A DNA stretch of 34,631 nt from Nitrospirota bacterium (GTDB lineage: Bacteria > Nitrospirota > Thermodesulfovibrionia > Thermodesulfovibrionales > UBA6898): contig JAJZPM010000042.1 in the NCBI GenBank assembly GCA_021811105.1, forward strand, positions 1 through 34,631. Direction: 5' to 3'. A program made the position numbers and the translations under genes. The notes beneath the pieces were generated by a model that saw only the letters and a program-made list of their open reading frames with translations, was not told the DNA's origin and searched no databases. Shown piece after piece: positions 26,558 to 34,631 of the stretch (its first letter is position 1; every line of letters starts with the position of its first letter).

Positions 26558-26634
26558 GCCCCCTTAGCTCAGTCGGATAGAGCACAGGTTTCCTAAACCT
26601 GGTGCCGCAGGTTCGATTCCTGCAGGGGGCACCA
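26558..26634 (+). tRNA. tRNA-Arg (anticodon CCU)
   Basis: A complete 77-base cloverleaf. The acceptor stem GCCCCCT pairs with AGGGGGC, the D arm begins GCTC, the anticodon stem CAGGT/ACCTG encloses TTCCTAA with anticodon CCT at 26592-26594, and the T arm is GCAGG-TTCGATT-CCTGC. The discriminator is A, and the 3' CCA is encoded (26632-26634). It reads AGG codons. tRNA genes are frequent integration sites, but I see no integrase or attachment repeat beside this one. Confidence 0.97.
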
Positions 26635-33296: not shown

Positions 33297-34406
33297 TCAC
33301 GAAACCAGCGCGATCCAGGCGACCGCGATGCCGAAGGAGGCGACGGTCACAGGGATCCCGATGCAAGCATGCTCTCTGAATCCTATCTCGACCCCGTAAG
33401 CCTTTGCCTGTTCGAAGGTTATGAGGTTCGCGATGCTTCCGATCGTGAGAAGGTTGCCTGCGAATGTGCTCGAAAGCGCAAGCGCATACCACTGGACATG
33501 CTGCGAAGGATCGAGGAACTTGGTGAGGAGCATTGTGGCCGGAACGTTGCTCACGAGGTTGCTGAGTACGCCCGAGATCATGGTGAGGAAGAAGAGGTCC
33601 CGGATGTCGATGCCATGCGACCGGAGAGAATCTACGATCAGGAGAGGCGCTCCGGTTGTCTCGAGCCCCCTGATGACGATGAAGAGTGCGCAAAAGAGGG
33701 TGAGGAGATGCCAGTCTACGAGCCCGAGGATCGAGCGCGTATGCATGCTCCTGCTGCAGAGGAGTATGCCCGCAATGCAGATCGCGCTTATCTCACGCGG
33801 AACCGAAGTGAAGAAAAGGGCTATAAGAACCACAGTCGCTGCGATGCCCTTCAGGCTCTGATGCCTGTCAAAGGCCGGCCATGAAGTCCCGATGGTTTTA
33901 CCCGGGGCAGGCGTCTTTACAAGGTCCATTTTGTAGATCGTCCGGATGATAAGATACGCAGCTCCCAGCGCAAGGGCGGAGGGGGGACCGCACCAGAGGA
34001 GAAAACGTCCGAAATAGAGCCTACCGAGCTGTCCTATGAGCATGTTCTGGGGGTTTCCGATGATCGTTGCCGCGGACCCGATGTTGCTCGCTGCGACCAT
34101 GCCTATGAGAAACGGTACGGGGTTGAGGCCGGCGTTCAGGACCGAGACAGCGAGGACCGGCGTAAAGGCGAGACAGACGATGTCGTTCATCAGCACTGCG
34201 GACAAAAGGGCGCTTGCGCACATCACGGCCAGGAGGAACCTCCCCGGTTTTTGAAGAAGCGCGGTAAGCCGGAGCGCAACCCAGGTGTAAAACCCGCTCA
34301 GCGTGAACTGCGACGACAGTACCATCAGTCCGTAGAGGAGCAGGATCGTGGGCATGTCTATCGACATGACAGCTTTGTGGACCGAGAGTTCCCCTGTGGC
34401 GATCAT
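33297..34406 (-). CDS. ArsB/NhaD/SLC13-type anion permease, 5' end removed by an IS element
   Basis: A membrane permease of the ion-transporter superfamily with about ten remaining helices. Marks are LMNDIVCLAFTPVL, SNIGSAATIIGNPQNMLIG, LVSNVPATMLL and FAGNLLTIGSIANLI, two re-entrant-loop repeats typical of ArsB, NhaD and citrate-type carriers. From ATG 34406 it has 369 residues. The reading frame stays open and homologous upstream to about 34511 (AVTYAGIALGGVPGLALDRTGIALLGAIA), but contains no start codon before an IS630-type transposase end. It has thus lost its original start and first few codons. It could be made from ATG 34406 without its first helix, or be a pseudogene. Substrate (arsenite, sodium/proton or dicarboxylate) cannot be set. 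Confidence 0.85.
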   Translation of the reverse strand: MIATGELSVHKAVMSIDMPTILLLYGLMVLSSQFTLSGFYTWVALRLTALLQKPGRFLLAVMCASALLSAVLMNDIVCLAFTPVLAVSVLNAGLNPVPFLIGMVAASNIGSAATIIGNPQNMLIGQLGRLYFGRFLLWCGPPSALALGAAYLIIRTIYKMDLVKTPAPGKTIGTSWPAFDRHQSLKGIAATVVLIALFFTSVPREISAICIAGILLCSRSMHTRSILGLVDWHLLTLFCALFIVIRGLETTGAPLLIVDSLRSHGIDIRDLFFLTMISGVLSNLVSNVPATMLLTKFLDPSQHVQWYALALSSTFAGNLLTIGSIANLITFEQAKAYGVEIGFREHACIGIPVTVASFGIAVAWIALVS

Positions 34407-34507
34407 GGCGATCGCCCCCAGAAGCGCGATGCCCGTCCTGTCGAGGGCAAGGCCCGGGACGCCTCCTAACGCGATTCCCGCGTAGGTGACCGCCGCGACC
34501 GCAAGAA

Positions 34508-34631
34508 CTAGTGTAGTGTCTCCAACGCTTCTTTACATTTAGCTATTTTGGTCAGAATCTTTTCTGCTGGAGCGGTCCATGAAAATACCCGAGGATTCTG
34601 ATTATGATTTTCCAGATACTCCTTGATTGCC
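34508..34631 (-). CDS. IS630-family transposase, C-terminal fragment (runs off the window)
   Basis: On the minus strand, reading from the window end, 40 codons encode the tail of a DDE transposase: IKEYLENHNQNPRVFSWTAP, then AEKILTKIAKCKEALETLH and TAG at 34510-34508. The pattern fixIxxyNxxxxxFxWTxxAxxILxKI is the end of IS630-type enzymes. The catalytic DDE residues lie outside the window. The TAG lies inside the palindrome CTAG at the junction with the permease gene, suggesting the stop codon was completed by the target, as described for IS870. Only this part can be judged. Confidence 0.8.
   Translation of the reverse strand, partial: AIKEYLENHNQNPRVFSWTAPAEKILTKIAKCKEALETLH
34511..34631 (-). 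mobile_element. IS630-family insertion sequence, one end only
   Basis: The element runs from the right edge to the CTAG at 34508-34511. IS630 elements insert at TA and duplicate it; the TA here is 34509-34510, so the element end should read GTGTAGTGTCTCC on the plus strand. The other terminus and the matching TA are outside the window. It interrupts the 5' end of the permease gene. Confidence 0.7.

Follow-up and report, generated by a model that had tools for sequence, protein, structure and literature searches.

An IS630-family insertion at CTAG that truncates a permease gene and takes its transposase stop codon from the target

A cut-and-paste element of the IS630/Tc1-mariner type, about 1136 bp long, appears to have recently entered a CTAG tetramer spanning codons 4 and 5 of a permease gene, in the context ATG AAC CAG CTA GTT. 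The insertion duplicated the target TA and produced a transposase stop codon, TAG, in which the ...CAC that ends the element is followed by the TA and G of the target, and it removed the ribosome-binding site and first four codons of the permease. We are highly confident of this combination of insertion, borrowed stop and beheaded permease.

The element and its copies

The window is the whole stretch of DNA that was analysed, 34,631 nucleotides, and corresponds to the entire contig C35 of a genome assembly of 3,942,611 bases in 93 contigs; it also contains a tRNA-Arg (CCT) gene at 26558-26634. C35 stops inside the insertion sequence (IS), carrying its terminal 121 bp and none of the remainder (Table 1). 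Throughout the assembly, contigs break within this repeated IS, 120-124 bp from its ends, and the shared interior (about 0.9 kb) was not recovered from the assembly, perhaps because of a size limit on contigs.

Table 1. Features at the junction of the permease gene and the insertion sequence (window coordinates)
Feature	Position	Strand	Evidence
End of the IS630-family element (121 bp), truncated where the contig stops	34511..34631	-	96% identity with the matching end of the full-length copy on C45; C39 and C27 identical
Last 40 codons of the transposase	34511..34630	-	Reading frame
CTAG, composed of the target's C and TA and the IS's first base	34508..34511	.	Sequence; C69 junction; empty site in G001
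One copy of the duplicated target TA	34509..34510	.	Single TA at the uninterrupted G001 site; TA flanks both sides of the C45 copy
Borrowed transposase stop TAG	34508..34510	-	Frame; same at C27, C39 and C45
Permease (CitMHS/ArsB-NhaD type) without ribosome-binding site and first four codons	33297..34508	-	403 open codons; Pfam CitMHS; start on C69; orthologues begin MNQL/MNQL/MNPV
Internal ATG, not the native start	34404..34406	-	Three same-genus orthologues reach 38 codons further upstream to their own ATG

The sole complete copy in the assembly, on C45, is 1136 bp long, encodes one 368-codon transposase and has 12-bp perfect tips, GTGTAGTGTCTC, its terminal inverted repeats matching at 12/12 bp at the tips and more weakly inward. 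The IS630-type assignment made in an earlier sequence-only reading of the window was borne out by this copy, the transposase of which matched the IS630 model NF033545 with 270 bits (cut-off 100, E 2.1e-80) and Pfam DDE_3 with E 1.6e-21. The IS630 family is defined by a DDE triad in which about 34-35 residues separate the second and third members; D185, D268 and E304, which we take to be these catalytic residues, are invariant in three aligned transposases, and 35 residues lie between D268 and E304.

Ends of the type seen in the window (left) were also found on C27, C39 and C45, and the opposite (right) ends on C6, C11, C19, C69, C89 and C45, with the repeat match at left ends starting at the CTAG or, at C27, 3 bp earlier. 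The other end of the element, to which the sequence-only reading had looked for a matching inverted repeat and TA, carries both on the C45 copy, and the window's own other end was assigned to C69 by homology. No partner left end was found in the assembly for the right ends on C6 and C19 (L012, L013). No difference separates the left ends on C35, C39 and C27 across 121 bp, nor the five unpaired right ends across 120 bp, so the insertion looks recent, as had been proposed. Because these ends are identical and the C45 copy differs from the other left ends at 5 positions and from the right ends at 7, the pattern points to a single subtype that spread in one recent burst, the C45 copy being older.

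Together, the element and its diverged copy interrupt at least four genes in the genome. In addition to the permease, joining the flanks of C39 and C11, of C27 and C89, and of the two sides of the C45 copy gave uninterrupted frames. The C27 and C89 ends (L002:1-180, L010:120-300) divide a small KTSC-domain gene (E 3.1e-21). The C45 copy (L004:1-3022; G000:C45 about 237181-240202) splits, in frame, an aldehyde dehydrogenase-type gene (E 4.1e-24), the longer frame of which presumably resembles a proline-utilisation enzyme. The C39 and C11 ends (L003:1-1503, L009:121-1624) interrupt a long frame with a zinc-ribbon-like start, the product of which has a DnaJ-like region of weak score (21.7 bits against a cut-off of 27.8); inspection by eye placed a resolvase-like gene farther upstream on C39.

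CTAG targets and transposase stops

The transposase frame is not closed within the element. On C45 it stays open through the final IS base (...CTA CAC) and is ended by TAG, made from TA and the next flanking base, and the transposase tail in the window ends likewise at TAG 34510-34508, as the sequence-only reading had described. Without the borrowed stop, the frame would stay open for a further 13 (C35), 3 (C39), 7 (C27) or 189 (C45) codons. Within the CTAG of the window, the G at 34511 is the first base of the IS, and the G that belongs to the target is found past the opposite IS end, on C69. All ten IS-host junctions found in the genome had this form, with CTA at 4/4 left ends and TAG at 6/6 right ends. 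CTAG is rare in the window (7 among 1257 TA sites before 34511), and the chance of ten CTA/TAG junctions against this window background is about 4e-9.

The association of CTAG with the stop was compared among relatives found with the three-transposase alignment, of which at least 506 were confirmed in genome contigs and the best 80 retained; together with L027 and the C45 copy these 80 make 82 elements. Among the matches listed, the two nearest transposase relatives came from a Thermodesulfovibrionales MAG and a Nitrospiraceae MAG, and the host itself is probably a member of the Nitrospirota. Element ends were placed with a tip profile that started from the tip of the present IS and made no use of the flanks, and 76 of the 82 were scored automatically for stop and right flank (L106, L040, L045, L079, L087 and L109 being left out). 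A borrowed stop was present in 35 of the 76, and the other 41 had their own stop 13-40 bp inside the tip. Both classes occupied the same sites: the right, stop-side flank was TAG in 32/35 borrowed-stop and 40/41 own-stop elements (Fisher p 0.33), and the left flank, where left tips scored well enough, was CTA in 33/33 and 36/38 (p 0.50), counts that are not independent owing to shared ancestry. L065 and L066, both counted, have identical proteins and the same nearest flanks and look like one insertion in two near genomes. The own-stop exceptions were one TAA on the right and one ATA and one CGA on the left. Since the own-stop and borrowed-stop elements keep to CTAG with about the same strictness, the borrowing of a stop looks like a side effect of targeting CTAG and not its cause.

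An alternative that we consider unlikely is that the transposase enters many TA sites and that only copies in CTAG (or in TAA/TAG) keep a properly ended gene and persist. Such survival would fit the junction stop present in 35/35 scored borrowed-stop elements, the three without TAG on the stop side having TAA, TAA and TGA; the TGA element, L027, has an additional stop within its transposase and is probably dead. TAA would suffice for survival, yet TAG outnumbered TAA 32:2 on the stop side, compared with 170:271 in the window (p 1e-11, a background from this genome only, its base rates being the window's also where applied to other organisms). Furthermore, the same strictness holds at the end where no stop is formed and among the own-stop elements. 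On these three grounds we ascribe the choice to the transposase, which most likely selects the CTAG tetramer, the stop following as a consequence.

A 4-bp duplication of CTAG cannot be told from a TA duplication at a CTAG site. In three elements (L030, L060 and L086) the next base outward from the TA is an A although the IS tip is unaltered, which disfavours the 4-bp duplication, and we therefore favour duplication of TA.

The distribution of the two classes was followed on an unrooted tree of 81 transposases made by a quick method, omitting L104 and comprising 41 own-stop, 37 borrowed-stop and 3 unclassed proteins; for this tree only, L106 and L109 (borrowed) and L079 (own) were classed by eye, and L040, L045 and L087 remained unclassed. 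The stop classes required 6 changes, 5 of them forced by starred branches, compared with 26.2 for shuffled labels. On balance, we lean toward CTAG targeting being older and fixed, with the stop dropped into the target or retaken inside the element several times in this IS630 branch. An own stop would be dispensable because the target always begins with TAG at that end. As the tree is unrooted, the own-stop elements could also have descended from stop-borrowers and kept the CTAG habit.

L043, L047, L049, L050, L051 and L052 have their own TAG 14 bp in from the end. Since 14 is not a multiple of three, this TAG lies in a different frame with respect to the tip, and an indel can apparently convert a borrowed stop into an own stop.

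The truncated permease

The permease frame matched Pfam CitMHS with E 2.3e-53, and its NCBIfam matches to MamN and NhaD were far under their cut-offs. It was confirmed to be open up to the CTAG at 34508-34511 without a start, the earliest ATG, GTG or TTG in frame being the ATG at 34406, and the missing start was located on C69. There, against the right end of the IS, stands GGAGGAGAA ATG AAC CAG CTA, a ribosome-binding site and start that read in frame into GTT CTT GCG of the window (GTT at 34508).

A search of 61 genomes, including the genome under study, gave 11 with a permease match at E 1e-40 or better; among the four other genomes of the same genus, G003 (83% complete) had no permease match. 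None of the same-genus orthologues starts at the position of ATG 34406. Their uninterrupted proteins begin MNQL (G001), MNQL (G004) and MNPV (G002) and are 83-94% identical to the window frame across the whole 402-403 residues up to the junction. The sequence at the insertion site is CTAG in G001, CTGG in G004 and GTCG in G002, and G001 carries the uninterrupted ATGAACCAGCTAGTT. The stretch of the C69 flank that reaches the site matches sequence immediately before the permease in G001 (86%) and in G004 (84%), and in G002 the match is to a part of the flank farther from the site (73%), whereas the flanks of C11, C89, C6 and C19 had no match to the permease loci of the five relatives compared. 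From these alignments we infer that C35 and C69 are linked. Thus the orthologue starts and the C69 junction indicate that ATG 34406 is internal and that the ribosome-binding site and four codons were lost.

The permease is therefore very probably not made, and we infer loss of function. Continued synthesis, through reinitiation at ATG 34406 or a change of frame out of the transposase, might be imagined, as the permease lies on the same strand as the transposase with its frame intact and shows no excess of replacement changes. We regard it as very unlikely: no ATG, GTG or TTG precedes 34406 in frame, the product would lack the first 38 residues, and an intact frame is also expected after a recent insertion. 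The codons unique to the window permease comprised 25 silent and 14 replacement changes, against 34 and 12 for two sisters together (p 0.35), which provides no evidence either way for relaxed selection.

Misjoining of an IS end to C35 during assembly, conceivable for a repeat within which contigs break, is still less probable, given that the C35 junction has CTA like every other left end found and is located where C69 and a relative predict. The reading in which ATG 34406, the first ATG in frame, is the native start and the IS lies merely upstream is refuted by orthologues that start four codons upstream of the insertion site and align at high identity to the junction.

Stop borrowing in the IS630 family

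The sequence-only reading had likened the arrangement to IS870, an IS630-family element of Agrobacterium that reportedly needs CTAG for its stop. This comparison held: a copy annotated as IS870 on pTi_CFBP2407 is flanked by CTA...TAG, and its transposase ends, as here, in a TAG formed by TA and the flanking G. The transposases share 48% identity over 97% of their length, which rules out identity with IS870 itself; the elements also differ in tips (GTGGTTTGATC in IS870, GTGTAGTGTCTC here), in length (1146 and 1136 bp) and in host group.

Searching plasmids with the transposase yielded 610 records; from these, 60 were taken at even steps and 8 copies read, IS870 included. CTA...TAG flanks were present in 8/8, with the TA imposed by the end finder so that only the C and G were observed. 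The stop was borrowed in five of the eight (IS870, ISMex18, two Rhizobium copies and one Streptomyces copy), whereas ISRj1 and the Rhodococcus and Variovorax copies each carry one of their own, inside the tip. Among these copies, L115 and L116 have weak repeat scores (4 and 6, respectively).

Other members of the family have been tied to the same target or to TA. The title of Tenzen and Ohtsubo 1991, as cited in PMC2170065, gives Shigella IS630 a preference for the TA in CTAG. For ISPsy32, a 1176-bp IS630-family element of Pseudomonas syringae with 49% transposase identity to the present one, a passage of PMC8027508 names CTAG as the target. ISY100 (IS630/Tc1-mariner) moves by cut-and-paste at TA, which is duplicated (PMC2170065); passages of that paper on ISY100 give no CTAG rule or borrowed stop, and the term 'stop codon' is absent from its text. 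In the literature within reach of our search, no account of stop borrowing in the IS630 family was recognised, a result that says little as most subscription papers lay outside that reach.

The element is a further case of the already described IS870-type arrangement. The present analysis contributes the empty site in a relative, the missing permease start, the second IS end, a count of the sites and the comparison with elements that carry their own stop. The element provides a clean, recent example of an insertion sequence gene completed by its target. The own-stop comparison separates a CTAG chosen for the sake of the stop from a stop obtained through the CTAG, and the data favour the second. 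A stop-borrowing transposase is liable to be mis-called when its flank is missing, and, if this reading is correct, the gene of a stop-borrower would be complete only after integration.
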